A stretch of DNA of 64,000 nt from Methylacidiphilales bacterium (GCA_021272165.1 JAJSLK010000045.1:1-64000); one strand, 5' to 3'; shown: positions 5,662 to 26,783, numbered from the stretch's first letter. The notes: generated by a model from the sequence alone, not told the origin. Translations and numbers: made by a program.

Positions 5662-5748
5662 GCGTCACGGGATTGTCACATTTGGGTCGCGCAAATGTTA
5701 CCATGAACTTCTTGGTCGACCTTTCCGCGATAACTATCCTTCCACTGA
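5662..5748 (+). promoter_or_regulatory. Regulatory leader, copy A (palindrome plus promoter-like pair) before tpsB
   Basis: This 87-bp block is 85% identical, without gaps, to 13303-13389. It contains a 27-bp imperfect palindrome at 5675-5701 (halves GTCACATTTGGG and CGCAAATGTTAC around TCG). A TTGGTC (5712-5717) - 17 bp - TATCCT (5735-5740) pair follows. The palindrome centre would lie about 60 bp upstream of the implied start, a position typical of class I activators. An ATG at 5703 opens MNFLVDLSAITIL, also conserved in copy B; this frame continues to 5915 and overlaps tpsB. Promoter and operator roles are inference. Confidence 0.6.
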
Positions 5749-5775
5749 TTTCTCACGTGCAACGCCCGATTTTGA

Positions 5776-7479
5776 ATGAAAAATTTGCCAAATCATTGCG
5801 ATCCGTTCGCCATGCACAGGTCGCACGTGTCGAGGCGGGAAGGAATACTTCTTACGCTTCTTTGGGTAATTTTAATGTGGATAGGGTGTTTGCTGGCAGC
5901 TTTTGCCACGCCTGACAGCGCGGCGGCTTCCAGTGCTCCGGCTGCGGGAACCACGCCGGCCAATGCTTCCGCCACTGCCATGTCCGTTCCCCGGTTTTAC
6001 ATTCGGCAATACGAAGTAAAAGGTGGGGGAAAATTGTTGTCGAGCGACGAGGTGGAGGAGGCGGTTTATCCCTATTTGGGGCCGTACCGGACTACGGAGG
6101 ATGTTGAAGCAGCACGGGGGGCCTTGGAAAAGGCCTACCGGGACAAAGGGTACCAGACGGTAACGGTGATGGTGCCGGCGCAGCAGATGCGCAATGGGGT
6201 GGTGAAGCTGCAGGTGATGTCGGGCCAGGTGGAGCGGTTGCGGGTGAACGGGTCACGTTATTTTTCGATCGACCAGATCCGGCGGGAGGCGCCATCGCTG
6301 CAGGAGGGGACGTCGCCGAACTTTACGCAGGTGACACACGATTTGCTGGTGTTGAATCAGATTTCAGACCGGCGAGTGACGCCATCGGTGAGTCCGGGCA
6401 GAGAGCCGGGAACGGTGGATGTGGACCTGACGGTGAAGGATACGTTTCCGATGCATGGGAGCCTGGAGATCAATAACCGGTACAGCGCGGATACGACGCC
6501 GCTGCGGCTCAACGGGTCGGTGAGTTACGATAATTTGTGGCAGCTGGAACACTCGGTGGGATTCAGCTTCCAGACGGCGCCGGAAAATCCGAGCGATGTG
6601 AAGGTGTTTTCGGGTTATTACCTGGCGCGGGTGCCGGATATGAGCTGGCTGAGCCTAATGCTGCAGGGAACCGACCAGGACAGCAATGTGAACACTCTGG
6701 GGGGGATCGGCGTGGCGGGCAAGGGTCAGGTGATCGGGGGTCGGGCGGTTTTCGCGCTGCCGTCGCGAAAGGATTTTTATCATTCGCTGAGTCTGGGGAT
6801 CGACTACAAGCACTTCGATCAGGACGTGGACATTGCCGGGACGCATTCGGTCACGCCGGTGACCTATTACCCGCTTAGCGCGGCCTATAGCAGCACATGG
6901 CAGGGAAAGGGGTATGAGACCGATTTCAATGCGAGCGTGAATCTGGCGATCCGGGAATTCGGCAGCGATGAGGCGGAGTTTCAGCAGAATCGGGTGGGAT
7001 CGAGCGGGGATTTCATTTATTTCCGGGGTGACCTGTCGCAGACGTGGGAGTTGCCGGAGGGTTGCCAGCTCTTTGCGAAAGTGCAGGGGCAGGCGTCGGA
7101 CGAACCGCTGGTCAACAGTGAACAGTTCAGCGGGGGCGGCATCGGAACAGTGCGCGGTTATCTCGAATCGGAAGAGTTGGGCGACAATGGGATTTTGGGT
7201 TCGGTGGAGATGCGGAGCCCGTCGTTGGGTGATGTGTTGGGCAAGGCGGTCAACGATTGGCGGTTTTACGTTTTTGCCGAGGGTGGCCGGCTCTCACTGG
7301 ATGAGGCGTTGGCGGACCAGCAGTCGCAATTCACGCTGGCGAGCATCGGGGCCGGGACACGGCTCCGGATCCTCGATCACCTCAATGGCTCGCTTGACCT
7401 CGGCGTGCCGATGGACAATGGCGTGCAAACCACGGCCTGGTCGCCGTTGCTGACCTTTCGGGTCTGGGCGGAGTTTTAA
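5776..7479 (+). CDS. TpsB transporter, ShlB/FhaC/HecB family
   Basis: A 567-residue outer-membrane protein of the two-partner secretion (TPS) pathway, which exports a large TpsA protein through its own beta-barrel. A hydrophobic signal core (LLTLLWVILMWIGCLLAAFA, about 25-44) is followed by an Ala/Ser/Thr linker, POTRA-like domains at roughly 73-150 and 152-222, and a C-terminal 16-strand-type barrel. The conserved L6 signature VRGY is at 459-462, and the chain ends in an aromatic residue (WAEF) as barrel proteins do. The start could be ATG 5776 or ATG 5812 (MHRSH); neither has a clear ribosome site. It is the first gene of a six-gene operon whose next members are ExbB, ExbD and TonB. The likely substrate is the giant protein at 13527. 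Confidence 0.92.
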   Translation: MKNLPNHCDPFAMHRSHVSRREGILLTLLWVILMWIGCLLAAFATPDSAAASSAPAAGTTPANASATAMSVPRFYIRQYEVKGGGKLLSSDEVEEAVYPYLGPYRTTEDVEAARGALEKAYRDKGYQTVTVMVPAQQMRNGVVKLQVMSGQVERLRVNGSRYFSIDQIRREAPSLQEGTSPNFTQVTHDLLVLNQISDRRVTPSVSPGREPGTVDVDLTVKDTFPMHGSLEINNRYSADTTPLRLNGSVSYDNLWQLEHSVGFSFQTAPENPSDVKVFSGYYLARVPDMSWLSLMLQGTDQDSNVNTLGGIGVAGKGQVIGGRAVFALPSRKDFYHSLSLGIDYKHFDQDVDIAGTHSVTPVTYYPLSAAYSSTWQGKGYETDFNASVNLAIREFGSDEAEFQQNRVGSSGDFIYFRGDLSQTWELPEGCQLFAKVQGQASDEPLVNSEQFSGGGIGTVRGYLESEELGDNGILGSVEMRSPSLGDVLGKAVNDWRFYVFAEGGRLSLDEALADQQSQFTLASIGAGTRLRILDHLNGSLDLGVPMDNGVQTTAWSPLLTFRVWAEF

Positions 7480-9308
7480 TGAATATGAAAAGAACCACGA
7501 TTATCTTTTTTAACCTGCTGCTTCTGCTGGCTGGAATGGTTTTTGCCCTGCCGGCACAAGCGTGGTGGAACACCGACTGGACACTGCGCAAGAAGATCAC
7601 CATCGATACGAGTTCCACCGGCGGGGCGATCAGCGACCCGATTGGCACCACGCAGGTTTTGGTGCGGCTGGCCGACTTTAACTTCGCGGCAGGCAAGGAC
7701 GATGGCAGCGACATCCGGATCCTATCGGCTGACGACAAGACACCGCTGCCGTTCCACATTGAAAAGTTCGATTCACTGCTGGGCGAGGCGTTTGTCTGGG
7801 TCAAGGTGCCGGATCTCAAGCCAGGCAGCCAGACCGTGTTCTGGCTCTATTACGGCAACACCGGCAGCATCACGATTCCGGGCGGAGGCGAGCCGAAGGC
7901 GACCTACGATCCCGATACGGTGCTGGTCTATCACTTTGCCGAAAGCGGCGCGCCGGCCCACGATTCGTCGGGTCAGGGTAACGATTCGACCACGCCGATT
8001 GCCTCGACCGAGTCGCTGATCGGGCCGGGGCTGCGGCTGACGGGCAAGGTGGCGGTGACCCTGCCCGGTTCGACCTCGCTGGCCTGGATTGACGGCGGCA
8101 CGATGACCTGGTCGGCCTGGATCAAGCCGGCGGCGCTCCAGCCCGGGGCGGTACTTTTCAGTCGCCGGGACGCGGGCAAGGATTTTCTGATCGGGCTCGA
8201 TAATGGCGTGCCTTTCGTCGACATCAACGGCACGCGCAGCGCCTCCGGTTCGCCCATCACGGCCAATTCGTGGCACCACCTCGCGGTGGTGGCCAGCGGC
8301 TCGACCACGACACTTTATCTCGACGGCTCTTCCTACGCCACGGTCAGCGCCGGATTACCCGGGCTGAACACAACGTCGCTGCTCGGCGGAGACAACCCGC
8401 CTGACACTACCACACCGGTGGCTGGGTTCGCCGGGGAAATGGACGAGCTCGAGATTTCGAAAACGGCGCGTACGCCGGGCCAAATTAAATTTGCGGCCGT
8501 GAGCCAGGGGGGCGATTCGGCCAAGCTGCTGACGGTGGGGCAGGACGAGTCGCCGCCAGCCAGTTGGCTCAGTGGAAGCCTGGGTCTTTTCGCCGTGATC
8601 CTCAAATCGGTCACCGTCGACGGCTGGGTGGTCATCGCGGTCCTGGGCGTCATGGGAGTGATCAGCTGGTACGTGATGATTTCAAAATTTTTCTACATCA
8701 ACCAGGTGCAGAAGGGCAATGCCCTCTTCCTTAAGGAATGGCGGCATGTGGCCCAGGACCTGACCGTGCTCGATCACACCGATTCGGAGAAGGTCAAAAA
8801 CCTCGGCGGCCGGGCGGGGCCGAAAACGCAGCGACTGATCCGCCACTCGAACCTCTACCGGATTTATCACATCGGTTCCGAGGAGATCGGCTACCGGCTT
8901 AAGAATGATCTGGTGCTCTCGGCCCGCTCGATCCAGGCGATCCGGGCCAGCCTCGACGGCGGGTTCGTGCGCGAGAACCACGCGCTCAACGACGGGCTGG
9001 TGTTTTTGACCATTTCAATCGCGGGCGGTCCGTTCATGGGGCTGCTCGGCACCTGTATCGGGGTCATGATCACTTTCGCGAATATTGCGGCGACCGGTGA
9101 AGTCAACATCAGCGCCATCGCGCCTGGTCTGGCGGCGGCCCTGGTGGCGACGGTGGCCGGTCTGCTCGTCGCGATCCCGGCGTTGCTTGGCTACAACTAC
9201 CTGATGTCGCGGCTTAAGACGACCAGCAGCGACATGCAAATCTTCATCGACGAGTTCGTCACGAAGATGGCCGAGTTCTACAGCAACATCGGCGAGGAAG
9301 TCCACTAA
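7479..9308 (+). CDS. DUF2341-LamG-ExbB/TolQ fusion (proton channel subunit)
   Basis: A 609-residue fusion. Residues 1-28 form a signal peptide. Residues 31-126 (WWNTDWTLRKKITI ... VFWLYYGN) match DUF2341. Residues 145-345 resemble a LamG/concanavalin-like sugar-binding fold (TWSAWIKP, WHHLAVVASG, LYLDG). A membrane segment at 380-403 then leads into a MotA/TolQ/ExbB domain, with TM segments near 507-530 and 546-571 and the family motif GLLGTCIGVMITF at 521-533. ExbB-type channels use proton motive force to drive TonB. Here a periplasmic, possibly glycan-binding domain is welded onto the channel. The start ATG overlaps the tpsB stop by one base (TAATG). Domain identities are firm at family level; the ligand is unknown. 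Confidence 0.88.
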   Translation: MNMKRTTIIFFNLLLLLAGMVFALPAQAWWNTDWTLRKKITIDTSSTGGAISDPIGTTQVLVRLADFNFAAGKDDGSDIRILSADDKTPLPFHIEKFDSLLGEAFVWVKVPDLKPGSQTVFWLYYGNTGSITIPGGGEPKATYDPDTVLVYHFAESGAPAHDSSGQGNDSTTPIASTESLIGPGLRLTGKVAVTLPGSTSLAWIDGGTMTWSAWIKPAALQPGAVLFSRRDAGKDFLIGLDNGVPFVDINGTRSASGSPITANSWHHLAVVASGSTTTLYLDGSSYATVSAGLPGLNTTSLLGGDNPPDTTTPVAGFAGEMDELEISKTARTPGQIKFAAVSQGGDSAKLLTVGQDESPPASWLSGSLGLFAVILKSVTVDGWVVIAVLGVMGVISWYVMISKFFYINQVQKGNALFLKEWRHVAQDLTVLDHTDSEKVKNLGGRAGPKTQRLIRHSNLYRIYHIGSEEIGYRLKNDLVLSARSIQAIRASLDGGFVRENHALNDGLVFLTISIAGGPFMGLLGTCIGVMITFANIAATGEVNISAIAPGLAAALVATVAGLLVAIPALLGYNYLMSRLKTTSSDMQIFIDEFVTKMAEFYSNIGEEVH

Positions 9309-9327
9309 CCCCCGGAGGAATGCGCGT

Positions 9328-9741
9328 ATGTCGATGAAAGCTGACAGCGAGGGCAAGGCCTACGATGACATCAATGTCACGCCGATGGTCGACCTGTACC
9401 TCGTGCTGCTGCTCATCTTCATCATCATGACCACGGCGGGGTTGCAGGGCCTCAAGGTCCACCTGCCGAAGGAAAGCGCGGCCACCAGTCAGGCTAAAAA
9501 GAAGATTCAGTCCATCACGGTTTCCAACGACGGGAAGATTTTCCTCAACACCGTGCCGGTGACGTTATCGGAACTGGAGCAGCGGCTGACCCAGCAGAAG
9601 GCCCAGACGCCCGATTTCCCGGTGGTGGTGCGCGGCGACAGCGCGGCGCAATACCAGGGGATCATGGATGTGCTCAACGTCTGCACCAAGCTCGGCATCA
9701 CCGAGGTCGCGCTGGCGACCAAGCCACTCAAGGGGAACTGA
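9328..9741 (+). CDS. exbD: ExbD/TolR biopolymer transport protein
   Basis: A 137-residue ExbD-family protein, partner of the ExbB domain encoded just upstream. It has a short cytoplasmic N-terminus, INVTPMVDLYLVLLLIFIIM with the proton-relevant Asp22 at the start of the single membrane helix (about 22-40), and a periplasmic domain with GDSAAQYQGIMDVLN and ITEVALATKP. A GGAGG-type ribosome site lies before ATG 9328, 19 bases after the ExbB stop. The next gene (TonB) starts 2 bases after its stop. The set forms an inner-membrane motor that would energise an outer-membrane or periplasmic step of the locus. Confidence 0.93.
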   Translation: MSMKADSEGKAYDDINVTPMVDLYLVLLLIFIIMTTAGLQGLKVHLPKESAATSQAKKKIQSITVSNDGKIFLNTVPVTLSELEQRLTQQKAQTPDFPVVVRGDSAAQYQGIMDVLNVCTKLGITEVALATKPLKGN

Positions 9742-9743
9742 CC

Positions 9744-10436
9744 ATGAGCGACTATAACTACGACGAGGAAGATGACCGGACATTTCTCGAGAAGTATGGA
9801 GTAATCCTCGGTCTTGCCGTGGTCGTGTTGCTCTTGGCTTCCGGCGGCATTGTGGCCTATTTCCTGACCGGGCCGGCCAAGGCGCCGAAGAAGCCGGAGG
9901 AAATCATGGTCAAGCTGTTGCCTCCACCGCTTCCGCCCCCACCCCCTCCGCCTCCGCCGAAGGTCCCCCCTCCGCCGGAACAGAAGATGGTGGAGCAGCC
10001 GAAAGTGAAGCCCGACGAGCAGAAGCCGAAGGAAGCCAAGAACGATCATCCGCCCGGACCCTCCGGTCCGAAGGCGAGCGGTCCGCCGTCGGATGAAGGC
10101 ATCGGCGGCACCGGCGGTGGCGACGGAACCATCGGCGGCGATGGCAGTGGCAGCAGCCGCTGGGGCTGGTACGCCGGTGAGGTGCAATCAGCCATCGCCG
10201 ATGCGTTGCGCAAAAACGACAAGACGCGCACGGCGGTGATCCATCTCAAGGTGCGGGTCTGGGCCGACCGCTCGGGCCGGATTACGAGGGCGAAGATTTC
10301 AGGTTCGTCGGGTGATCCGGCCGTCGACAACGCGTTGCAATCGGAAGTGCTCACCGGCCTGAGCCTGCCGGAAGCGCCGCCCACCGACATGCCGATGCCG
10401 ATCGTGCTGCGGATCAGCGCGCAGAGGCCTGATTGA
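9744..10436 (+). CDS. TonB-like energy transducer
   Basis: A 230-residue TonB-type protein. It has a cytoplasmic acidic N-terminus, one membrane helix (about 21-43), a proline-rich stretch from about 60 to 82 with runs of Pro, a Lys/Pro/Glu spacer and a Gly-rich hinge (EGIGGTGGGDGT). The C-terminal TonB fold contains VRVWADRSGRITRAKISGSSG and VLRISAQRPD. It would link the ExbB/ExbD motor to an outer-membrane partner. Possible partners in the operon are the TpsB barrel and the putative porin next to it. No TonB-dependent receptor plug is seen in either, so the partner is unknown. No TonB box was recognised. Confidence 0.88.
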   Translation: MSDYNYDEEDDRTFLEKYGVILGLAVVVLLLASGGIVAYFLTGPAKAPKKPEEIMVKLLPPPLPPPPPPPPPKVPPPPEQKMVEQPKVKPDEQKPKEAKNDHPPGPSGPKASGPPSDEGIGGTGGGDGTIGGDGSGSSRWGWYAGEVQSAIADALRKNDKTRTAVIHLKVRVWADRSGRITRAKISGSSGDPAVDNALQSEVLTGLSLPEAPPTDMPMPIVLRISAQRPD

Positions 10437-10442
10437 TTTTTC

Positions 10443-12422
10443 ATGAACATATTTTCCCTTTCCAAACCCATGACCGCGCTGCTGATCGCCGCCGCGCTGA
10501 CGCTTCCACTGCGGGCGCAGCAAAGCGCCGTGCCCGATCCATCGGCCGACCAGCCGCTGCCGGCTCCGACCCCGATTTCGCTGGCCGAGGTGGACCAGAT
10601 GGTTTCCAACCTGTCGCCGCGCGCGGAAAGTTCCGGATTGCGCGATACCGGCAATGGCGAGACGACATCCTCGGCGCGGTCGTCCGATGCGGCCCCGTCC
10701 GCTCCCGCGCCGTCCTCCGCATCGTCGGCGTCGCCCAACGCGATGGTGAACCTGGTCAACCTGCTGGTCAGCCAGCATGTGATCACGAAGGAGGCCGGCG
10801 ACGGCCTGATCAAACAGGCCGAGCAGGAGGCCGACGCGGTCCGGGCCCAGCAGGCCTCGACCGAGGCCGCCGCCGATCGGGCCCTCGCGGTGCAATCGGC
10901 TCCGGTGCCGACGCCCACGCCGGCCCCGGTGGAAAATTCCGAGGATGAGGTGAAGGTCAATTATGTTCCCGACGTGGTCAAAAACCAGATCCGCGATGAG
11001 GTGACCCAGGACGTGCTCAAGCAGACTCGCGACGAGGACTTTGTGGCGAAAGACGACATCCCCGACTGGGTGAAGCACTTGCGAATCACTGGCGACCTCC
11101 GGGTTCGTTATGAGGGCGATTTCTATCCCGACAGCAACGCGGTCGGCAGCTTCACCAATTTCAATGCGATCAACACCGGCTCGGGCTTCGTCCTCGGTAC
11201 TCTTAACCCGCCGCAATACAATGTTGACCAGGACCGCAACCGTTTCCGGTTTCGGGCCCGCTTCGGCGGCGAGATGGACCTGGGGCAGAACTTTACCCTC
11301 GGGCTGCGGGTAGGCACTGGCTCGGATGATTCGCCGGTGACTGAAAACCAGACCATTGGCGGTGCCAATTCGGCCCAGGGTGGCTATTTCGCCAAGTACG
11401 CGATCTGGCTCGATCGCGCCTTCCTCAAGTACGAGTTCAGCGCCGATGCCCTGAGCGCCGCATTCACCGTTGGGCGCTTCGATAACCCGTTCCTTCACAC
11501 CAGCATGATCTGGGCGGATGACCTTGCCTTCGACGGTCTTCTCGCCCAGGTCCGCTACAAGGTCAACGACGCGCTCACACCATTCCTGGTTGCCGGCGCC
11601 TTCCCGGTCTTCAACACCGACTTCAACTTTTCTTCCGATCAGTCGGCCAAGTTTAGCAGCGAGGATAAATATCTTTTTGCCGCCCAGGCCGGGGCCAACT
11701 GGGCCATCAACAAGGATTTTAACTTCAAGGGTGCGGTGGCCATGTACTACTTCGACAATATCGAGGGCAAGGTGTCTGATCCGATTCCGGTGGCCTCCAC
11801 CGCCGACGTCGGCAACACCGACGATTCGAGGCCTTCCTTCGCCCAGAACGGCAACACCTATATTGCCCTACGCGACTTTACCGATCCGGCCCCGCCGGCT
11901 GGCTCGGAAATTCAATATTACGGACTGGCAACGCCGTTCCACGATCTGGCTGTCACCGGCCAGCTCGATTACAGCGGCTTCGATCCATTCCACATGTGGT
12001 TGACGGGTGAGTTTGTTGAGAATCTAGCCTTTGATCGCAATGCCATCATCAACGGCGGCCCGGCCAGCAGTCCGGGCCCGGTCAACAACTTTAACGGCGG
12101 AGATCCCACGGATTTTGCCGGCGGGAATCTCGGCTGGATGATCAAGCTCAACGCCGGCAAGGTGGATCTCGAGCAATTATGGGACTGGAACGTGGCTCTG
12201 AGCTATCGCTACGTCCAGTCCGACGCGACCGTGGATGCTTTCACGGACTCCGATTTTGGCACGCCGTTGACCGGCACCAACCTCAAGGGCTACACGCTGG
12301 GCGGCAACCTTGCCCTTTCCCAGAGGGTCTGGCTCGGGCTGCGCTGGATGAGCGCCGATGCTATTGCCGGACCGACCTTCAAGAACGATCTTGTCCAGTT
12401 CGACATCAACGCCAAGTTCTGA
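10443..12422 (+). CDS. Putative porin (outer-membrane beta-barrel)
   Basis: A 659-residue exported protein. It has a signal peptide (MNIFSLSKPMTALLIAAALT, cleavage after LRAQ), then a 190-residue Ala/Ser/Pro-rich periplasmic stretch containing AMVNLVNLLVSQHVITKEAGDGLI and likely coiled coil. From about residue 210 a series of amphipathic strands follows (LRITGDLRVRYEGDF, RNRFRFRARFGGEMDLG, FTVGRFDNPF), ending in VQFDINAKF with terminal Phe. This is the pattern of the bacterial putative porin family (Porin_5-like). Start ATG 10443 is six bases after the tonB stop. Whether it transports a nutrient or serves the TPS apparatus cannot be told from sequence. Confidence 0.82.
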   Translation: MNIFSLSKPMTALLIAAALTLPLRAQQSAVPDPSADQPLPAPTPISLAEVDQMVSNLSPRAESSGLRDTGNGETTSSARSSDAAPSAPAPSSASSASPNAMVNLVNLLVSQHVITKEAGDGLIKQAEQEADAVRAQQASTEAAADRALAVQSAPVPTPTPAPVENSEDEVKVNYVPDVVKNQIRDEVTQDVLKQTRDEDFVAKDDIPDWVKHLRITGDLRVRYEGDFYPDSNAVGSFTNFNAINTGSGFVLGTLNPPQYNVDQDRNRFRFRARFGGEMDLGQNFTLGLRVGTGSDDSPVTENQTIGGANSAQGGYFAKYAIWLDRAFLKYEFSADALSAAFTVGRFDNPFLHTSMIWADDLAFDGLLAQVRYKVNDALTPFLVAGAFPVFNTDFNFSSDQSAKFSSEDKYLFAAQAGANWAINKDFNFKGAVAMYYFDNIEGKVSDPIPVASTADVGNTDDSRPSFAQNGNTYIALRDFTDPAPPAGSEIQYYGLATPFHDLAVTGQLDYSGFDPFHMWLTGEFVENLAFDRNAIINGGPASSPGPVNNFNGGDPTDFAGGNLGWMIKLNAGKVDLEQLWDWNVALSYRYVQSDATVDAFTDSDFGTPLTGTNLKGYTLGGNLALSQRVWLGLRWMSADAIAGPTFKNDLVQFDINAKF

Positions 12423-12428
12423 TCGCCT

Positions 12429-13217
12429 ATGAAAACCAAAGTCCTCCTTCTTCTGGCCGCACTGGCGGCCTTCCCCGGGCTGCGCGCCGATGACCAGGAT
12501 GCCACAACCGAATCGCGGCTGCGCGACGCCTTGCGCAATACCATGAGCCAATTGCGCGACGCCCAGAACCAACTGGTGACTCTCCAGGCCACCCAGGCCC
12601 AGAGCGACAAGGACAATGCCGACCTGAAGGCCAAGGTTGACGAACTCAACACCCAAATCACCACGCTGACCAAACAAAGCGGCGACGACAAGGCCGCCGC
12701 CGACAAGTCGATCGCCGATTTGAAGGCGCAATTGGCCGACCAGACCGCCGAGGTGGCCCGGCTCAACCAGAGCGTGGCCGAATGGAAAAACGCCTACAAC
12801 CAGACGGTGCAACTGGCCAACGCCCGCGAGCAGGCCCGCGCCCAGTTGGCCCTCCAGGCCGCGCTGCTTCAGCGCACTGTCGACGATCGCGAGATGAAAA
12901 ACCTCGAACTTTACCGCACCGCCAGCGAAATCCTCACCCGCTATGAAAAGTTCGGTCTCGGCGATGCCATCGGCGCCAAGGAACCATTTGTCGGCCTAAG
13001 CCGGGTCAAACTGGAAAACATGGTCCAGGGCTACAAGGATAAAATCCTCGACGAAACGGTTACCCCGGGCCAGCCACCCTCCGCCGCGGCCAATGAACCC
13101 TTGCCAGTTACGGTGCCCAAATCTTTGGCCGCTCCGACCAAGACCGCTTCCGCACCTGTGCCGACTCCCGTAAAAACCCCGCTGGCTTCCACGCCGGTGC
13201 CTGCAACCCAACCTTAA
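12429..13217 (+). CDS. Periplasmic coiled-coil protein of the TPS/TonB operon
   Basis: A 262-residue exported protein. The signal peptide is MKTKVLLLLAALAAFPGLRA. A long heptad-rich coiled coil runs from about 25 to 155 (QLRDAQNQLVTLQA, LKAKVDELNTQITTLTKQ, DLKAQLADQTAEVARLNQS). A compact motif ILTRYEKFGLGDAIGAKEPF and VKLENMVQGYKDKIL then follows, and the tail is rich in Pro/Thr/Ala. I recognise the C-terminal motif as recurring in proteins next to ExbB-ExbD-TonB-porin clusters, but no function is established to my knowledge. It ends the operon. A role as periplasmic spacer or adaptor between the inner-membrane motor and the outer membrane is inference. Confidence 0.75.
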   Translation: MKTKVLLLLAALAAFPGLRADDQDATTESRLRDALRNTMSQLRDAQNQLVTLQATQAQSDKDNADLKAKVDELNTQITTLTKQSGDDKAAADKSIADLKAQLADQTAEVARLNQSVAEWKNAYNQTVQLANAREQARAQLALQAALLQRTVDDREMKNLELYRTASEILTRYEKFGLGDAIGAKEPFVGLSRVKLENMVQGYKDKILDETVTPGQPPSAAANEPLPVTVPKSLAAPTKTASAPVPTPVKTPLASTPVPATQP

Positions 13218-13302
13218 AACAGGCTTGGTTCCAGCTTGACCCTCGGCCTGATTAAGCAGGCTAAGGGAGATTTCAGGGATGCAGGTGCATCCATTCATGA
13301 CG

Positions 13303-13389
13303 GCGTCGCGGAATTGTCACAATTGGGTCGCCCAAATGTTACGATGAACTTCTTGGTCGGTCTTTCGGCAGTAACTATCCTCTTACTGA
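13303..13389 (+). promoter_or_regulatory. Regulatory leader, copy B, before tpsA
   Basis: This block matches copy A at 74 of 87 positions, without gaps. The palindrome at 13316-13342 has halves GTCACAATTGGG and CCCAAATGTTAC around TCG, and TTGGTC (13353-13358) - 17 bp - TATCCT (13376-13381) is fully kept. The implied transcript would start near 13388 and carry a 5' leader of about 140 nt to ATG 13527. Having the same control block before tpsB and tpsA suggests coordinated expression of transporter and substrate from separate promoters. Confidence 0.6.
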
Positions 13390-13424: not shown

Positions 13425-13526
13425 AAAGCGTCCAGTGAACGCCAGAGTCAGTGCAAATTCCAGCGCCATCGTGCGCTCAGATTTTCAAAGAAATTGCTTA
13501 AATCGATTCACCAAAAGATTGATGCC

Positions 13527-16500: not shown

Positions 16501-19500
16501 GCGGCTCGGTCAATATCAGTGCCGGCAATCTCGACATCGAGGGCGATATCATCTCGCCCGGCGGTCAACTGAACCTCACCGCTTTCGGAAACGCTTCGTC
16601 CGGTTTGGGCGAATTCACCCTGGGCTCGTCGGCGGCGCTGAGCACGGCCGGGCTCGTGGTCGATGATCGCATCACTTCCCTCACGGCCAATCTGCTGCCC
16701 ATTGCCACGAACGGCGGTTCTATCACCATTGACGGGTACGACACCACGCTGATGTCGGGCAGCACAGTCAATGTGTCCGGCGGCCTTTATTTGTCGGCGG
16801 CCAACAAGCAGACCTTCGGCAAGGGCGGCAGCATTACCGTCGAGGGTGGGCAGGACGCCACCCTTAACTATGTGCTCGATGGCCAACTCAATCTCGGGTC
16901 CAACTATCTGGCCGGGCAAGGATTCCTGGGTTTTTCCGGCGTGGCCGGCGGCGGCGGTTCCCTCGCCATTCAGGCTCCTTTGGTTCAGCTCGGAGGCCAG
17001 AGTCTTCTCAATCCCGATTCCAATACCACCACCTTGTGGCTTAACCAGACCGATGCACAGGGAAACCTTCTCTTCTTCAGCCAGGGTGGATTTGGCAATT
17101 ATAAATTCGTCGGACTGGGCGATCCCAACGCGCAGAATGTTCCGGCGTTCCAGATCGCTCCGGGCACCGTAATCGATCCGGTCGCGCAGAGCTGGCAACC
17201 GGTCCTGGCCACTGTGGGCAATGACATTAACCTCACGCCGGTGGTCTATCCACTCGCGTCCGAGCGTTCGCCGGTCAACCTGACCTTCAGCGCTCCCGGC
17301 GTCGTCAGTTTGCTGACTTCTACTCTCACCGTCCGCGGCGATATCGTGATGGGGGAGGGCTCGTCCATCAAAACCGATCCCAAGGGAAGTGTGACCCTTT
17401 CCGGCAACACCGTGGCGGTGCTGGGCAGCATCATCGCGCCGGGAGGCAAGATTTCGATCAGCGGCGGCAAGGACTCGACTTCTCTTTTTCCTTCCGCCGG
17501 CAATGTGGCGGTGGCGACAGTTGATCTGGGGCCGGACAGCCTTCTTTCCACCGCCGGTACGTTTGAGCAGAGTCTGAACGTCTACGGCTACATGACTGGA
17601 ACGGTATTGCCGGGCGGTACCATCAGCGTGGGTGGGAACATCGTCGCGGAAGCAGGGTCGGTGCTCGACGTTTCCGGCGCTTCCCATCTTGTCGACCTGG
17701 TGCCTGCCGCAGCGGGTACGCCGAGCAACGCATCGCCCTCCGCTTACCAGATGACGCGCGCGCAACTCGACAGCAGTGGCGGCTCCATTACGCTGTCAGG
17801 CGGTCAGGAATTGTTTACCGATGCCACCCTGCTGGGTGCGGCGAGCGGACCCACGGCCCAGGGGGGCAGTCTGAGCATAACCTCGGGCCGGTTTTACGCC
17901 TCTGGAGCCGCTCTGCCCACGGATGAGACGTTGATTGTCACGCAGAGCGGGTCGACCATTCCTATGCCTGCCTTTTACCCAAGCGGTCAGACCGCCATCG
18001 GGCATGATGTCGTGGATACAAAGGGACATTATATCCAGGCCCAGGGTTACTTTGCCGCCGACAGCTTTGATTCGAGCGGGATGTCGCAGTTGACCCTCAA
18101 CGGTATCGTGCAATTCAACGGACCGGTGAATCTCGCCGCCAGTCGAAGCATCACCGTGGGGACGGAGGGCATTGTTTACGCTAACGCCGCGGTCAATTTG
18201 ATAGCGCCTTATGTCGATCTCGGACTGCCCTTCCAGGCTCCGGTTGCTTTGACGCAGCAGGATACTTCCCCCTTTCAGCAGAGCGGCTCGAATTTTCCCG
18301 TTCCTCCCACCTACGGCACGGGCAGCCTCAACGTCAGCGCAACCGATTTGATCGATGTCGGTAATCTTTCTCTGCAGGGCATCGGCCTCGTCAATTTCAA
18401 CAGCGGCCTCGCCGATGCCGGTGACGTGCGCGGTGACGGGACCCTCGACGTCTCCGGCAACATCAATATCACTGCGGCGCAGATTTATCCCACCACGGAA
18501 TCGTTCTTCAATATCATCACCTTCCAGGACAAAAACGCCGGCTCGACCCTTTCAGGGAACGTTGCGTTCTATTCTCCCGGAGGGGTTCTGCCTTCGCTGC
18601 CTCTGTCTGCCGGCGGAATTCTCAACGTCTATGCCGATAATATTGTCCAAGACGGCGTGCTGCGTGCGCCGGATGGAACGATCAATCTCGGTTCCGGCGT
18701 TACCAGCTCCACGCCGGTCGATATCATTTCGGGCCGCCATGTCGATGCGACCGCGCAGGTCACGCTCGATTCCGGCAGCATCACCTCGGTTTCCGAAATC
18801 GATCCCACGACCGGCCAGGCAGTGGAAATTCCCTACGGGATCAATATCAACGGCACCGAATGGCAGGATCCGGCGGGAAATGACATCACTGCGGCGGGCA
18901 ACAGTACCAATACCGGAGGTGTTCCCGCCAAATCGATCAATATTTCGGGTGTGAACGTCACCGACAACAAGGGCGCCACGCTCGATATCAGCGGGGGAGG
19001 GGATATGCTTTCTTACCGGTTTGTCACCGGGACCAATGGCACGAACGACATCCTGTCCTCAACCACCAGCTTCGCCGTTATCCCGAGCTACAAACTGCCC
19101 TATGCGCCGGTTTCCCTCGGCTCTGGCGGAGTTTATCAAAATTCCTCCCTCTCCGTGGGTGACCAGGTTTATCTTACCGCCAGCAGCGGCCTGCCGGCCG
19201 GAGTTTACACGCTTTTGCCCGCGCGTTACGCCCTTCTCCCCGGAGCGTTTCTGGTCACCCCGCAGAGCACGACGCCGCTGAACAAGAACACCATTCAGCC
19301 CGACGGCTCGACCATCGTCTCCGGTTATCGTTTCAATGGCACCAATCCCGCGCAGGACGGAAGCGAGCTCTACACTTCCTTTGAAGTCGCCCCGCAGTCG
19401 GTGGTGCAGACCCGGGCCGAATATGATATTTCCCTCGCCAATACCTACCTGGCGCAAAGCGCCACGGCCAATAATGTTGCCGTGCCCCGCCTGCCGATGG

Positions 19501-22500
19501 ATGCCGGCCAGATCGTTTTTGCCTCCACTTCCACCATGACGATCCAGGGTGAACTGGAAGCCCAGCCTTCGACCGGTGGACTCGGCGGCCTCGTTGACAT
19601 CGCCAGCCCGAGCAATATCTACATCGGCTCGCTGACCTCCAGTGGTGACGTTCCTTCCACGGTTCCCGCGGGCGATCTGTTCCTGGACGCCACGGCGCTT
19701 TCCAATTTCGGGGCGGATAGTCTTCTCATCGGCGGCTACCGTACTGCCGTCGACGGCGGACTCGACGTGACCGTGACCACGAGCAATCTCACACTCGACA
19801 ATGCCGGTGCGCCTTTGGAAGGTCCGGGCATCATCCTGGTCTCGAAAGCCAATCTGATCCTGGCGGCCGACTCGGAACTGGAGCAGGTCGGGACCAGCAA
19901 CGGTTCCACGCTTTACATCGGCAATGCGAGTGTGGCGGGCAGCGGCGACGGGGTGCTCGTGCGGGTTGGAAGCAGCGCCGGGCAGGTGATTCGCTACGGC
20001 GTCGATTCCTCCACCGTGCCAACGCTGACCATCGATGCGGGCGCGACTATCTCTGGAGCGAATGGCACGGCGGCAGGTAGTTTAACGCTCGATTCCACTT
20101 CAGGAACGCATCTGGATCCGGGAGCGATCCTGAACGCTGATGCGGTCTCTCTGAGCAGTGGCCAAATCAGTCTCGAGCTGACGCCGCCATCCGTCCCGCC
20201 CGTGACCAATGGCCTGATTCTTTCCAGCACGGAGCTGGCTGGACTCCAGACCTCCACTCAGGATTTGGCGCTGTTGAGTTATTCCTCCATCGATATTTAC
20301 GGGCAGGGTTCAATTGGCAGCGTTGATTCAACCGGCAAATATCAGGATGCCAGCCTGACGCTCGAATCGGCGGGCATTCGCGGATTCGACGGGGGTACTG
20401 ACGGGGTCAATATCTACGCCCAAACGGTAACGATCAACAGCATCCCCGGCGCCACCATGCCCGCCGGATCAGTCCCGCTCACGTCCGGAGCGCTGACGTT
20501 TAACGCCACTACCATCAACCTCGGCGGTGGATCCGGTGCCAGCAATTTCCAAGTCAAGGGTTATAGCGACCTGAACTTCAATGCCTCCAACGGCGTACTC
20601 ATCCAGGATACCGCCTCCATTACCAGTTCATCCGGCACGGTAACGCCCGGCGCGGCGACACTCCTTTCCAACGGCAATATCACTTTTAATACACCGGTTA
20701 TCACCGCCGCGACCGGAGCGAACGAGACGATCGACGCGGCGAATAATCTTGTGATCAATGCTCCGGCGGGAACCTCGACGCCGCAGTTAACCGGAGGATT
20801 CGGCCTCGATGCATCCCTTACACTGGAAGGCGCCAGCGTCACCACGTCGGCGGCTCCGACCAGCGGTGTAATTCTGCCGGGTAGGCAGACCGCGGTTCAA
20901 GGGGGCGTTTTCCTGCCCAGCGGTACCATCACCGTTTTGGCTAATACGGGTGACATAACCATTGGAGATAGTCTTGATGCCGGCGGCACGGCCCAGACAT
21001 TCCAGTCGACCCTGGTCAAATATACCTCAGGCGGCCAGATCACGCTCACTTCCACAGAGGGATCGGTGAATGTGCAAAGCGGCGGCAGCATCAATGTTTC
21101 CGCGCAGGCGGATGGCGGCGACGCGGGCACGCTGGCGATCAGTGCGGTGGTCGGAACGGTGACCCTGGCCAACAATACGCTCGTCGGCACGGGGGGCTCG
21201 GGCGGTCAGGACGGCACTTTCACGCTTGATGTTGGCACGCTGCCGTCTCTTTCCTCCATCGAAACGGCGCTGGCTTCAGGCAATTTTTCGGAATCGCAGG
21301 ACATCCGCGTTCGCAATAGCGGTACCGTCACGGTGGACGGCTTGGTTACCGCGCATACGTTCGACCTTTCCGCCGATAAGGGCTCCATTATCGTTTCCGG
21401 AACCGGAGAGATCGATGCCAGCGGTGCCACCGGTGGAACGATCAACCTGATGGCATCCGGTAGTGTCACCCTGCAAAATGGTTCGGTGCTGACGGTCGAG
21501 GGAGCCACCTTCGACGACGCGGGTAAAGGCGGTGCGGTATCGTTGGAGGCCGGCACATCGGTCAATGGCGTGGCGCCGAGCCTGGCGTCATCCTCGGGAA
21601 CCTATACCGCGGGCACCCCGGTGGTCGATATTCAGACCGGCTCAAAGATCATTCTTAATGTCGATACCCTGCCGATCCTGCTGCCGACCAGCGGCCAGAG
21701 CTCCATCACGCTCAATGCGCCAGGCCAGGTCGTGCTGGCCAACGGTACGCCGGGCAACGATGGCATTCTGGTCAGCAGTGCCGGAACGATCACAACGCCC
21801 GGTGGCGGGACGACTCCGTTCACGGCCGGCCAGATTCTCACCAATGTTGCGGCTGGCAGCACGATCACCCTGAACAACGCGGGCACGATCAGCTTTGCCA
21901 AGGACGGGACGGGCGGAACGATTTCGCTCGAAGTCCCGGCCTTCGCCGATTTCACCACAAACGAAGCGACCAATCCCACGGGTGGGGCGGCGCTGATGGC
22001 GGCTGCGGCTGGTGATGTTTCGGGAACGCTCTATCTCCGCGCGCCGCAAACCAGCGACAACCTCAATGTTCTGATCAACCCCATCAATGGCACAATCACC
22101 GGCGCTTCCAGCATTACGGTCGAAGGCTATGAGGTCTGGACCCCGGTGGGCGGCATCATTGATTCGGTGGAGGGGGCGATTTACAACAACGGCACTGTTT
22201 TCGTCGGCAACACGGCCGCGATGACCAGCCGTCTGCTGGCCAACAATGCCGGCCTGGCCGGACTGCTTAACATCGAAGTGGGCGCGGAAATCGACAATCC
22301 GACCGGTGACCTGACCCTCGAAAACACCTGGGACCTCTCGACCTTCCGCTTCGGGCCTTATGGTACCGCCGGCGACCTCATGCTTCGTGCCGCAGGCAAT
22401 CTTATCTTCACCGGGAACCAAGACGCCCAGCTTGAGACCAGCTCATTTGGCAACGAAGGCACCGGCGTCAATGCCAGCCTGAGCGACGGGTTCACGGGCT

Positions 22501-25500
22501 ACGACGGATCGACGCCTTACAGTCTCTGGACGGCTACACTCATGTCGGGGCAATCGTGGTCCTATCGTCTCGTGGCCGGCGCCGATTTCACTGCCGCCGA
22601 TTATCACAAGACGTCAGGCACCGGTTCGCTGCTGTTGGGCCAGGGTTCGCAAAGTCTGCCGACGGCGCTCGACAGTCAGAAGTCGGATATTATCCCGTTT
22701 TATTACCAGGTCATTCGGACGGGCACCGGCAGTATCGATATCTCGACCGGCGGCAACGTGGAACTGCTTAACAACCTGGCGACGATCTATACCGCCGGAT
22801 CGGCCGTTTCCGATCCAACCACACTTTATACCTCCAATGATTTCGCCATGCCGGTGCTCGATTATCCCGATGGCACACCCTTTCCATTCCAATACCCTGA
22901 ATACGATGCGCAATACAGCTCCGCCGGTGGGAACGTTACTATTCAGGCCGATGGCAATATCGAGCATCAGGTGCTCAATGAGGCCAATACGCTGGTGGCC
23001 GATTCGTCGCTGGAACTGCCGACGAGTTGGCTTTACCGGCGCGGCTTTGTCTACAACGGTCAGTTTGGAGTCAGCCATACTAATGCCGCTGGTTTGGGCA
23101 CGTCGCCGGGTGAGATTGAATCGACGTCCTGGTGGGTCGATTTCAGCAACTTCTTCGAAGGAGTCGGTGCTTTGGGTGGAGGAAATGTCACTCTGATTGC
23201 GGGCAAGAACATCAACAATGTCGATGCGGTCATTCCGACCAACGCGCGGATGCCGGAGGGCACTCCCGATGCGACCAAGCTGGTGGAACTCGGCGGCGGT
23301 GACTTGGTAGTCAAGGCGGGCGGCAATATCAACGGCGGCGTCTATTACGTGGAACGAGGAACGGGTAAGCTCGACGCTGGTGAAAATATCCTGACGAACA
23401 GCACCCGCGCGGCCCTGCTGGAAAGCACCATTAACGTCGATAATTCCAAGAACATTGTGCCTTCCTCGACAACCTGGCTGCCAACAACGCTTTTCCTGGG
23501 CAAGGGTAGCTTCGACGTCACCGCGGGCGACAATCTCCTGTTGGGGCCCGTGGCGAATCCCTTCCTCTTGCCTCAGGGCATCAGCAACAGTTTTCTGGAG
23601 AAAACCTATTTCTCCACTTACGCCTCCGATGATTCGGTCAACGTCTCTTCTCTGACCGGTTCTGTTACCCTGGATGACGATTCCATCGGCAGTACCTCGG
23701 GTTCACTGAACAGTTGGTATCAATCGATCTTCTCGCTCTCAGGTCAGGATACGACCCACCTCACGGCCTGGTCGGCGTTTGAGCCCTGGCTTGCCTTGGT
23801 AGAAACGGGCCCTAGTGCTTTTGCGACGGTTGCCTCGCTGATGCCTCCCATTCTGGAAGCGACCTCCTTTACCGGCGATATTAACACCATCGGCAGCCTC
23901 ACGCTTTCGCCTTCGGCCATTGGCACGGTCCAACTGGCCGCCGAAGGGTCCGTGAACGGACTCCGGCCGAACAGCGCCAACGCCAGCGGCACAGCGTGGA
24001 GCACGGGCACGATCAATCTTTCCGATGCCAACCCCGCCTCCATTCCGGGTGTGGCCGATCCTCTTTCCTACGGCGCGCCTATTGCGGCGAATACTCCCAA
24101 TGGTGCGCCCTGGAATACGACCTCCACCACCATCTTGAGCGTGATCAACAATCTTTTTGCTGAAACAGGTTCGACTGAAGGCGCCGCTGCGATATTGCAA
24201 ACCAAAGAAAATCTTCATACGCCGGGTCTGCTGCATGCGGATGATCCCAATCCTGTCCTGATCTATGCCCAGACCGGCAACATCTCGGGGCTCACGCTCT
24301 ACTCCGGCGAGGTGACCCAGGTCATCGCCGGACAGGACATCACCGACATCGCGCTCTATCTCCAGAACAACAACGCCAGTGACGTCAGCATCGTTTCCGC
24401 CGGTCGCGACATTATCGCCTATGATCCGAATTCGCCCCTGCGGATCGCCGCGCAGGAGATCGGCAACTCTCTTGAGAGTCCGAATCTGGCAGGTGACATC
24501 CAGATCAACGGTCCCGGCACGTTGGAGGTGCTCGCCGGCCGCAATCTCAATCTTGGTGTGGGTCCGCAGAATAGCGACGGGACCGGCGTCGGTATCTCCA
24601 GCATCGGCAACAGTCGCGATCCTTATCTGCCCTTCGGCGGCGCGGATGTCGTGGCGGCCGCCGGGCTGGACGGTTCGGCCAATGGCTTCAGTAACAGCAA
24701 TCTCAATTTTGCCGCCTTTAACGCCGAATTTCTCGATCCGACCACCGCCGGAACGGAAGCGGCCCGATACCTGTCCGATCTGGGCGATCTTCTGGGTCTA
24801 ACAGATGCGACCGACGACCAGATCTGGTCAACGTTCAATCAGTTGCCCCAGGAACAGCGCAATAACCTTTCCCTGCAGATTTTCTACCTCGTCCTTCGTG
24901 ATGCGGGCCGCGATCATAACAACTCAAACGCTCCGGGCGCCAGCACCTATTCGGCAGGGTACGACGCCATCAAGGATCTGTTTCCTGGCAGCAATAACTG
25001 GCAGGGTGATATTTCGCTGACCTCGCGCGAAATCAAGACGACCAACGGCGGCAACATCAGCCTTCTTGCCCCCGGCGGCGCCCTCAATGTCGGTCTTGAC
25101 ATCGCCGGCAATAACGCGGCCGACCAGGGCATCTTTACCGAGGATGGCGGCAACATCAACATCTTCACCAATGGTGACGTGAACGTCGGCACCTCCCGTA
25201 TCTTTACCCTTAACGGCGGCAACGAAATCCTCTGGTCCTCCGTTGGCGACATCGCCGCCGGCGCCTCGTCCAAGACCGTGCAGTCAGCGCCACCCACCCG
25301 GGTTCTTGTCGATCCGCAGAGCGGCGACGTGCAGACCGACCTGGCGGGTCTGGCCACTGGCGGCGGTATCGGCGTTCTGGCCACGGTGGTTGGGGCCGCT
25401 TTGTCGGATGTTGACTTGGTTGCTCCCAAAGGAACCGTGAATGCGGGCGATGCCGGTATCCGCGTGTCGGGTAATCTCAATATCGCCGCGGTCAAGGTCC

Positions 25501-25736
25501 TCAATGCGGGAAACATCCAGGTCGGAGGAAAATCGGCGGGTGTTCCCACGACCGCGGCGCCAAACATCGCCGGGCTCTCCGCTGCCGGAAGCGTGGCCGG
25601 GGCGGCCAACAGCGCGGCGAGCGATGTCAGCCACCAAAACAGCAATCAGGCCGCCGGCCAGCAGGCCGAAACACCGCCTTCAATCATTGTGGTTGAAGTG
25701 CTTGGGTATGGTGGCGGCGAATCAGATGACAACTGA
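13527..25736 (+). CDS. Giant TpsA exoprotein, filamentous haemagglutinin family (DUF3739-like C-terminus)
   Basis: About 4,069 residues. The signal peptide begins MKQIRLPSGLALAVVALLCL and is cut near ASA-ANR. A 200-residue Ser/Thr/Asn/Gln/Ala-rich low-complexity segment comes next. The TPS secretion/haemagglutination-activity domain is at roughly 230-400 (ALLTWQSFNIGKDTTLDFDQ, NQNGI at 331-335, ALVASSL). Thousands of residues of repetitive Gly/Asn/Ser/Thr beta-helix follow, with recurring GGSI, LNVSA and LTAGGNI-type units. The last 1,000 residues resemble DUF3739, with DVDLVAPKGTVNAGDAGIRV near the end. The product would be a secreted fibre or adhesin exported by the TpsB at 5776. A TTG at 13494 is also in frame, but ATG 13527 starts directly at the signal peptide. 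It is preceded by leader copy B. Confidence 0.92.
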   Translation: MKQIRLPSGLALAVVALLCLGATDASAANRLTGLGMNNTSSNTTTNNSSSSTSQTSTAATTATSQSAQVSILAQHAAATLQKSIQALQAQQAAQNAARAAALNASSSVPNGLTPGGLVPGIKGVDPVDPSTIAINAPVTVNTDGTSSVTIAAGAALTLPPSLSGSEKITISGSGTVGSITTGGTITTLTGGVATTVAPGSTISLPEGGTVTFASGAPVPKTVSTYNYGTSSAPAAVPASWSGVSGLSQSTYVPTGSQTTGPTTVTITQSSQQALLTWQSFNIGKDTTLDFDQSAGGANVGQWVAINKVAPSVAPSQILGNLQAPGQVYVINQNGIIFGGSSQVNTGALVASSLPINDNLVARGLLNNPDDQFLFSQLTVNPIPQGAIMPAFVPPAGPTAGNGDTVAQRPNGQVVAATGQNGDVVVEAGAQLNSPTTPEHVGGKIALVGPNVYNSGTITSPDGQVIMAAGLQVAFTAHNSNDPTLRGLDVEVGKVANSSYDGGATGVAGTATNLGYIEVPRGDTTIVGMNVNQDGLIDSSTSVSLNGRIDLLADYNAAISILVSGASTVPVLTPTATGNLTFGPGSTTQILPELSSTDEIVGTELALSSIVNLQGKNIDFGANSTLLAPGASTPSTSTAVDFSGAVLSSGVTVGAGAWLPVGQSYGFYNTTGQITVENGASIDVSGSQNVSASVAEDIVAAQLLGTELANSPLQQNGPLRGQTVDVNLLDTGVSSDGTAWIGTPVGDVSGYVNLVERTVGELTTNGGTISMKAGQAVNLNSGSTINVSGGWINYQGANIQTTKVVENGQVVDISTASPDQVYEGIYTGYNNISAKWGITQNYANALAQNSTYVAGYIQGGNGGTLSITAPSMTFNGNLYGNTVAGANQRTLASQLSATYAGTNFLPTILATQAIPLSGTLSLSLLGQNGSLTGYPTQSPSPAPTVVFSLTPIAGDMVLSPDLINVDGFANFSLINETGNVTIPADVTLQTAAGGSVNISAGNLDIEGDIISPGGQLNLTAFGNASSGLGEFTLGSSAALSTAGLVVDDRITSLTANLLPIATNGGSITIDGYDTTLMSGSTVNVSGGLYLSAANKQTFGKGGSITVEGGQDATLNYVLDGQLNLGSNYLAGQGFLGFSGVAGGGGSLAIQAPLVQLGGQSLLNPDSNTTTLWLNQTDAQGNLLFFSQGGFGNYKFVGLGDPNAQNVPAFQIAPGTVIDPVAQSWQPVLATVGNDINLTPVVYPLASERSPVNLTFSAPGVVSLLTSTLTVRGDIVMGEGSSIKTDPKGSVTLSGNTVAVLGSIIAPGGKISISGGKDSTSLFPSAGNVAVATVDLGPDSLLSTAGTFEQSLNVYGYMTGTVLPGGTISVGGNIVAEAGSVLDVSGASHLVDLVPAAAGTPSNASPSAYQMTRAQLDSSGGSITLSGGQELFTDATLLGAASGPTAQGGSLSITSGRFYASGAALPTDETLIVTQSGSTIPMPAFYPSGQTAIGHDVVDTKGHYIQAQGYFAADSFDSSGMSQLTLNGIVQFNGPVNLAASRSITVGTEGIVYANAAVNLIAPYVDLGLPFQAPVALTQQDTSPFQQSGSNFPVPPTYGTGSLNVSATDLIDVGNLSLQGIGLVNFNSGLADAGDVRGDGTLDVSGNINITAAQIYPTTESFFNIITFQDKNAGSTLSGNVAFYSPGGVLPSLPLSAGGILNVYADNIVQDGVLRAPDGTINLGSGVTSSTPVDIISGRHVDATAQVTLDSGSITSVSEIDPTTGQAVEIPYGININGTEWQDPAGNDITAAGNSTNTGGVPAKSINISGVNVTDNKGATLDISGGGDMLSYRFVTGTNGTNDILSSTTSFAVIPSYKLPYAPVSLGSGGVYQNSSLSVGDQVYLTASSGLPAGVYTLLPARYALLPGAFLVTPQSTTPLNKNTIQPDGSTIVSGYRFNGTNPAQDGSELYTSFEVAPQSVVQTRAEYDISLANTYLAQSATANNVAVPRLPMDAGQIVFASTSTMTIQGELEAQPSTGGLGGLVDIASPSNIYIGSLTSSGDVPSTVPAGDLFLDATALSNFGADSLLIGGYRTAVDGGLDVTVTTSNLTLDNAGAPLEGPGIILVSKANLILAADSELEQVGTSNGSTLYIGNASVAGSGDGVLVRVGSSAGQVIRYGVDSSTVPTLTIDAGATISGANGTAAGSLTLDSTSGTHLDPGAILNADAVSLSSGQISLELTPPSVPPVTNGLILSSTELAGLQTSTQDLALLSYSSIDIYGQGSIGSVDSTGKYQDASLTLESAGIRGFDGGTDGVNIYAQTVTINSIPGATMPAGSVPLTSGALTFNATTINLGGGSGASNFQVKGYSDLNFNASNGVLIQDTASITSSSGTVTPGAATLLSNGNITFNTPVITAATGANETIDAANNLVINAPAGTSTPQLTGGFGLDASLTLEGASVTTSAAPTSGVILPGRQTAVQGGVFLPSGTITVLANTGDITIGDSLDAGGTAQTFQSTLVKYTSGGQITLTSTEGSVNVQSGGSINVSAQADGGDAGTLAISAVVGTVTLANNTLVGTGGSGGQDGTFTLDVGTLPSLSSIETALASGNFSESQDIRVRNSGTVTVDGLVTAHTFDLSADKGSIIVSGTGEIDASGATGGTINLMASGSVTLQNGSVLTVEGATFDDAGKGGAVSLEAGTSVNGVAPSLASSSGTYTAGTPVVDIQTGSKIILNVDTLPILLPTSGQSSITLNAPGQVVLANGTPGNDGILVSSAGTITTPGGGTTPFTAGQILTNVAAGSTITLNNAGTISFAKDGTGGTISLEVPAFADFTTNEATNPTGGAALMAAAAGDVSGTLYLRAPQTSDNLNVLINPINGTITGASSITVEGYEVWTPVGGIIDSVEGAIYNNGTVFVGNTAAMTSRLLANNAGLAGLLNIEVGAEIDNPTGDLTLENTWDLSTFRFGPYGTAGDLMLRAAGNLIFTGNQDAQLETSSFGNEGTGVNASLSDGFTGYDGSTPYSLWTATLMSGQSWSYRLVAGADFTAADYHKTSGTGSLLLGQGSQSLPTALDSQKSDIIPFYYQVIRTGTGSIDISTGGNVELLNNLATIYTAGSAVSDPTTLYTSNDFAMPVLDYPDGTPFPFQYPEYDAQYSSAGGNVTIQADGNIEHQVLNEANTLVADSSLELPTSWLYRRGFVYNGQFGVSHTNAAGLGTSPGEIESTSWWVDFSNFFEGVGALGGGNVTLIAGKNINNVDAVIPTNARMPEGTPDATKLVELGGGDLVVKAGGNINGGVYYVERGTGKLDAGENILTNSTRAALLESTINVDNSKNIVPSSTTWLPTTLFLGKGSFDVTAGDNLLLGPVANPFLLPQGISNSFLEKTYFSTYASDDSVNVSSLTGSVTLDDDSIGSTSGSLNSWYQSIFSLSGQDTTHLTAWSAFEPWLALVETGPSAFATVASLMPPILEATSFTGDINTIGSLTLSPSAIGTVQLAAEGSVNGLRPNSANASGTAWSTGTINLSDANPASIPGVADPLSYGAPIAANTPNGAPWNTTSTTILSVINNLFAETGSTEGAAAILQTKENLHTPGLLHADDPNPVLIYAQTGNISGLTLYSGEVTQVIAGQDITDIALYLQNNNASDVSIVSAGRDIIAYDPNSPLRIAAQEIGNSLESPNLAGDIQINGPGTLEVLAGRNLNLGVGPQNSDGTGVGISSIGNSRDPYLPFGGADVVAAAGLDGSANGFSNSNLNFAAFNAEFLDPTTAGTEAARYLSDLGDLLGLTDATDDQIWSTFNQLPQEQRNNLSLQIFYLVLRDAGRDHNNSNAPGASTYSAGYDAIKDLFPGSNNWQGDISLTSREIKTTNGGNISLLAPGGALNVGLDIAGNNAADQGIFTEDGGNINIFTNGDVNVGTSRIFTLNGGNEILWSSVGDIAAGASSKTVQSAPPTRVLVDPQSGDVQTDLAGLATGGGIGVLATVVGAALSDVDLVAPKGTVNAGDAGIRVSGNLNIAAVKVLNAGNIQVGGKSAGVPTTAAPNIAGLSAAGSVAGAANSAASDVSHQNSNQAAGQQAETPPSIIVVEVLGYGGGESDDN

Positions 25737-26756: not shown

Positions 26757-26783
26757 GTTTAGAAGATAACAAGCTCAAAAAAT

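Follow-up and report, generated by a model that had tools for sequence, protein, structure and literature searches.

In Pseudomonas aeruginosa the genes phdA-pdtB-exbB2-exbD2-tonB4-PA0696-PA0701 form one unit with pdtA adjoining, under the control of PhoB and sigma-VreI, with PA0696 termed a putative outer-membrane porin and the Ton genes described as "still uncharacterized" (PMC7035377, PMC4971064). In low phosphate PdtA and PA0696 are strongly up-regulated, this P. aeruginosa counterpart belonging to the Pho regulon (PMC9769906). An association of two-partner secretion (TPS) genes with ExbBD and PA0696 in Pseudomonas, Burkholderia, Rhodopseudomonas and Janthinobacterium was noted by Llamas et al. 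2009, and in the zebrafish test of that study strains mutated in tpsA, tpsB, PA0696 or the tonB homologue were like wild type (PMC2729926). The link of TPS with Ton genes in proteobacteria is therefore known already, and it is unexplained. Type V translocation is described as proceeding without an electrochemical gradient, an H1 plug helix is predicted in most TpsB proteins, and in HxuABC of Haemophilus a TPS protein is coupled to a TonB-dependent receptor (PMC5422565).

The window analysed here is a stretch of 64,000 nucleotides from a Methylacidiphilales draft genome (G000; 2.87 Mb in 88 contigs) and contains at 5776-25736 a conserved module encoding TpsB, a DUF2341-LamG-ExbB fusion, ExbD, TonB, a Porin_5 porin, a coiled-coil protein and a TpsA of 4080 amino acids, all on the plus strand. 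The six genes from TpsB to the coiled-coil protein are spaced by -1, 19, 2, 6 and 6 bp, and no clear terminator is found in the ~280-310 bp between the coiled-coil gene and TpsA. The genes, their places and domains, and the tight operon followed by a giant TpsA described in the first-pass annotation are borne out by gene calls and Pfam. The same order, TpsB-ExbB-ExbD-TonB-putative porin-small protein (PA0697-like) with a large TpsA adjoining, is that of P. aeruginosa PUMA3/Pdt (PMC7035377, PMC4971064), the identity of the window block with the Pdt operon resting on gene order and published annotation. In contrast to PUMA3/Pdt, the window has TpsA downstream of the block, and no Pho or sigma-VreI regulator genes are seen near it. 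A Klebsiella plasmid bridges the two: downstream of its LamG-ExbB-type block come genes for YbjN, PpiC and LysR, in the manner of PA0698-PA0701. Gene orders that are intermediate and include YbjN and PpiC are seen on plasmids of Klebsiella, Cupriavidus and Methylosinus.

With two-partner secretion of the FhaC/FHA type (type Vb) the locus shares a ShlB-type barrel with POTRA domains and an exoprotein with a TPS domain, but it adds a Ton-type motor, a porin, a coiled-coil protein and a DUF3739 end with a tail motif, and appears to have no room for H1. A TPS pair tied to a TonB-dependent step is also the arrangement of HxuABC of Haemophilus influenzae; however, HxuC is a TonB-dependent receptor, whereas the window has in its place a porin modelled as plugless and encodes the motor within the locus. 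The transmembrane Asp of ExbD and the C-terminal domain of TonB are present as in the Ton system. Tol-Pal likewise has a motor of the TolQ/TolR/TolA kind and a coiled-coil partner in the periplasm, but the window differs from it in that its ExbB bears DUF2341-LamG and the locus is linked to TPS; neither TolB nor Pal is found among the window locus genes scanned. The porin shares with OmpM of Veillonella, an attachment porin, an outer-membrane barrel with a periplasmic stalk, but has no Pfam SLH domain and carries a VRVPYVPE motif in the stalk. Relative to the open literature searched, the new elements are the near-obligate character of the set, its reach beyond Proteobacteria and the universal ExbB fusion, together with a predicted plugless 16-stranded stalked porin, a TpsB that seems to lack room for a plug helix, and the tail and stalk motifs.

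Components of the locus

TpsB (5776..7479) is of the ShlB/FhaC type with POTRA domains (Pfam ShlB 3e-18, POTRA_2 5e-16). Only ~30 low-complexity residues separate the signal peptide from POTRA1, and the equivalent stretch in the homologues is about 8-35 residues long, suggesting from sequence length rather than structure that there is no room for the plug helix H1 and its 30-residue linker. H1 and the linker are common but dispensable in TpsB proteins and hence not strictly defining for type Vb. Comparison of the homologues shows a short, unconserved segment ahead of POTRA1, with no TonB box evident. In the window's phylum the TpsB and ExbB genes are in tight linkage; in several proteobacteria TpsB lies beyond TpsA on the far side or elsewhere.

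The DUF2341-LamG-ExbB fusion (7479..9308; Pfam DUF2341, Laminin_G_3 and MotA_ExbB) is a single open reading frame composed of a signal peptide, lectin-like domains that are probably periplasmic, and a TolQ/ExbB proton channel. In all related loci 80 of 83 ExbB reading frames are fused to DUF2341-LamG, the remaining 3 being cut by contig ends, and every complete ExbB in 38 stretches fetched around matches has the same fusion. ExbD (9328..9741; Pfam ExbD) contains the transmembrane Asp motif NVTPMVD, which is intact by a strict pattern in 115 of 117 homologues and reads DVTPMLD in the other two. The TonB/TolA-like protein (9744..10436; Pfam TonB_2 9.5e-8) has an N-terminal transmembrane helix, a proline-rich spacer and a C-terminal TonB_2 domain. 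In many Burkholderiales TpsA is ahead of the block and two ExbD genes are present. A Zorya-like anti-phage defence motor was considered for ExbB and ExbD and rejected, as PADLOC gives no match for either.

The porin (10443..12422; Pfam Porin_5 1.4e-192) is predicted by AlphaFold2 as a barrel of 16 strands with an N-terminal helical periplasmic stalk and no plug (pLDDT 78 overall, barrel mostly >90). OmpM1 of Veillonella is the closest fold match to the model in the PDB, and no sequence relatives with solved structures are found for the porin or the DUF3739 region. The stalk contains the motif VKVNYVPD (10950..10973; consensus VRVPYVPE), which precedes a helix and in which Tyr-174 and Pro-176 are nearly invariant across 75 porins. 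Directly downstream, the secreted coiled-coil protein (12429..13217) is conserved across 78 homologues, its C-terminal part having the form EILTRYEKFG...EPF...LEN.

The giant TpsA (13494..25736, with the probable ATG at 13527) matches Pfam TPS and DUF3739 and has a filamentous haemagglutinin N-terminal domain. The TPS secretion domain (residues 264-479, 14283..14930; Pfam TPS 4.8e-14) is preceded in the N-terminal alignment by an extension of ~225 residues (13608-14283), part of which looks helical and which includes a conserved VPNGLxxGGL motif common to the homologues. A TPS domain normally begins the mature protein. At the other end the DUF3739 domain (25215..25550; Pfam DUF3739 6.3e-29) forms in the model the last part of a β-solenoid, into which a helical subdomain is inserted, and a tail of low pLDDT, predicted to be disordered, follows; a fold search of the PDB with the DUF3739 end returns nothing below E 0.4. 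The tail contains the motif IVVEVLGYG (25686..25712), and a VEVLGYG-like sequence is present in all 52 DUF3739 TpsA examined, 48 by pattern and 4 by eye against a shuffled-tail expectation of 0.06 of 52, a figure that describes conservation and is no independent test, as the pattern was drawn up with the sequences in view and the 52 include many close relatives. In our reading the tail motif resembles a TonB box. The window TpsA tail has no Cys and so no HMW1-type Cys pair forming a disulfide-bonded loop. The C-terminal tail of TpsA and the porin stalk hold the best candidate docking motifs.

Co-occurrence of the block with DUF3739 exoproteins

Used as query against 84,980 species genomes, the ExbB fusion gives 46 loci spanning Verrucomicrobiota, Burkholderiales, Reyranella, Sphingomonas and others. 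Those most similar to the window are mostly from Verrucomicrobiota (Methylacidiphilales, Spartobacteria and Chthoniobacteraceae), which is accordingly taken as the window's phylum. Profiles made from the window proteins identify the block in 46/46 loci, and the TPS genes too as far as the contig extends. A second full set is present in the window genome on contig C9 in the order ShlB, DUF2341-ExbB, ExbD, TonB, porin, coiled coil and DUF3739 TpsA, and this second copy together with the recurrence of the set at all 46 genome-contig loci, to the extent of their contigs, indicates that the locus is not a chance arrangement. The short contig C84 carries a third DUF3739 TpsA end, which brings the genome to three DUF3739 TpsA for two blocks. 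Contig C1 encodes a separate TPS pair without DUF3739 and with no motor block adjoining, which is an internal control showing that TPS alone does not entail the motor.

Because the fusion itself had served as bait for the 46-locus set, a second sampling used neither TPS nor ExbB as bait and covered 658 genomes, 369 of Gammaproteobacteria and 289 of the window's phylum. Matches to Pfam Porin_5 split clearly in these two sets into full-length porins (E <1e-130) and distant porins, mostly aligned to profile positions 155-535. The full-length porin is present in 33 of the 658 genomes, DUF3739 in 32 and both in 32, which is the opposite of the pattern that the first-pass annotation had named as counting against its proposal, namely an ExbBD-TonB-porin block occurring mostly without TPS genes. 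In Gammaproteobacteria the full-length porin is found in 24 genomes and DUF3739 above the cut-off in 23, all of them among the 24; in the porin genome without DUF3739 (G171) the contig that bears the block is just 8.6 kb long, and one further gammaproteobacterial genome (G290) has a DUF3739 match below the cut-off. In the window's phylum porin and DUF3739 occur in nine genomes each, and these are identical. The corresponding Fisher p values are 1e-35 and 3e-17 for Gammaproteobacteria and the window's phylum, respectively, calculated as if genomes were independent, which related species are not. Porin and DUF3739 genes on the same contig are spaced by 3.2-18.4 kb in 27/27 pairs. Among 115 Alphaproteobacteria two genomes have the full-length porin and the same two have DUF3739, one of them being the sampling centre and known beforehand and the other having its porin cut by the contig end. 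The alphaproteobacterial genome G062 (locus L049) encodes four DUF3739 TpsA and one full-length Porin_5.

ShlB is above the cut-off in 144 of the 369 Gammaproteobacteria and is far commoner than the full-length porin (24), and the motor is therefore a mark of the DUF3739 subtype and not of TPS generally. DUF3739 TpsA, TpsB, motor, porin and coiled coil form a conserved, near-obligate set and a distinct TPS subtype. The earlier proposal of a distinct, conserved TPS subtype with its own Ton motor thus holds for the DUF3739 class in Proteobacteria and the window's phylum, but not as something previously unseen, since the Pdt/PUMA3 order and the association of Llamas et al. 2009 came before it (PMC2729926, PMC7035377). 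On the Klebsiella pneumoniae plasmid NZ_CP065459.1 (IncFIB/IncHI1B; locus L124) the ExbB/ExbD/TonB/porin block has IS elements nearby, and the adjoining TpsB and DUF3739 TpsA reading frames are short and apparently incomplete.

Possible roles of the motor

The favoured reading, to which a probability of roughly 0.4 is given, is a motor-coupled two-partner secretion module in which the target of TonB is the fibre pathway, perhaps through a grip on the TpsA tail. In its favour are the co-occurrence of full-length porin and DUF3739, the frequency of ShlB in genomes that have no block, the C1 pair with no motor adjoining, the intact ExbD motif, the tail motif of all 52 TpsA with its predicted disorder, the apparent lack of room for H1 in TpsB, the absence of a TonB-dependent receptor from the Pfam-scanned window genes, and the surplus of DUF3739 TpsA over blocks in G062 and in the window genome. 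TpsA would be exported by Sec and threaded to the surface, TPS domain first, by a TpsB without the usual plug helix, with the DUF3739 end and the flexible tail passing last and the tail being retained in the periplasm. The C termini of HMW1, HxuA and CdrA stay in the periplasm (PMC5422565), and by analogy with these the TpsA end is placed there. The ExbB-ExbD proton channel would drive TonB across the periplasm, where it may grip one or both of two motifs, the short β-like VEVLGYG of the tail and the VRVPYVPE of the porin stalk, at a site organised by this stalk together with the coiled coil. The resulting pull could complete export, keep the fibre tensioned or release it. Several fibres could share one motor, as the four DUF3739 TpsA and one full-length porin of G062 suggest that one block may serve several fibres. 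The stricter form of this reading, a machine driven by proton motive force in which TonB grips a TonB-box-like C terminus of a periplasm-retained TpsA and pulls, tensions or releases the fibre, is rather unlikely.

The near one-to-one pairing of TPS with the motor makes the statement that type V secretion has no outer-membrane energy source testable, and it suggests that the DUF3739 branch of a supposedly unpowered pathway is energised. It also gives exbB2-exbD2-tonB4 of P. aeruginosa, which are uncharacterised, a function that can be tested, and offers two short peptides, from the TpsA tail and the porin stalk, as candidates for binding. If the reading is true, this would be a type V system using an electrochemical gradient, with TonB having a secreted cargo as its target and not a receptor. 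Several points run counter to the favoured reading. Type V secretion being described as independent of an electrochemical gradient (PMC5422565), the motor could serve another purpose; the porin present in every set fits uptake equally well; and the tail motif could bind the POTRA domains of TpsB or the coiled coil rather than TonB. In addition, the gammaproteobacterial locus L096 keeps the porin, coiled coil and DUF3739 TpsA and has no ExbB-ExbD-TonB between porin and TpsA, the usual place being occupied by a TPR protein and another gene.

Import through the porin and a Tol-like tether are serious rivals to a motor acting on the fibre. In the first, which is possible if doubtful, the fibre captures a substrate, for example a phosphorus source, the porin imports it with TonB energising or gating the porin, and the LamG domain of ExbB binds glycan-like imports in the periplasm. 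The porin adjoins TonB and has a conserved stalk motif, HxuABC is a precedent for a TPS protein acting with a TonB-dependent receptor (PMC5422565), and the phosphate-starvation control of the P. aeruginosa counterpart, with PdtA and PA0696 up in low phosphate, is in keeping with nutrient uptake (PMC9769906). However, Ton receptors have 22 strands and a plug, whereas the 16-stranded porin model is plugless, is nearest to OmpM1 and offers no usual target for TonB, which speaks against the earlier suggestion that TonB opens the neighbouring porin. Phosphate genes do not recur in the scanned flanks, and import leaves the TpsA tail motif unexplained.

The tether, in which a motor related to TolQ-TolR-TolA clamps or remodels the outer membrane and cell wall at the fibre mount together with the stalked porin and coiled coil, with no direct pull on TpsA, is unlikely. 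ExbB scores higher with the TolQ model (119 bits), and ExbD with TolR (96 bits), than they do with the ExbB/ExbD models, and TonB scores slightly higher with TolA, but all these scores are under the curated cut-offs; the likeness of the porin to an attachment porin and the coiled-coil partner are consistent with a tether, and the lack of a TolB or Pal gene in the block counts against it. That TonB gates the TpsB barrel directly, an idea also put forward in the first-pass annotation and here taken to work through the POTRA or N-terminal region, is consistent with the apparent lack of room for H1 and the linkage of TpsB to ExbB in the window's phylum but appears very improbable, given the short, unconserved stretch before POTRA1 with no evident TonB box and the location of TpsB across TpsA or elsewhere in several proteobacteria.

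Flanking genes

Following TpsA (window positions 25992-28412) are genes for a PEP-CTERM protein, for which Pfam reports the PEP-CTERM motif only, and for a secreted protein with no Pfam match that resembles a substrate-binding protein by eye only. These PEP-CTERM and substrate-binding-like families recur at 8-9 such loci in the window's phylum, including that of the orphan C84 TpsA. Homology of P0009 to the PBP_like_2 protein adjoining the Methylosinus locus was rejected, the similarity not being significant. The idea that phosphate genes characterise the flanks in general was also rejected, as Pfam on 102 flanking proteins gives TPR and PpiC as the recurrent families and not phosphate genes. 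A gene for a PpiC-type peptidyl-prolyl isomerase repeatedly adjoins the block (L044, L046, L054, L114, L117, L118, L121 and L124) in the window's phylum and on the Klebsiella plasmid, similar to the placement of PA0699 in P. aeruginosa, and the isomerase may act as a chaperone of TpsA.
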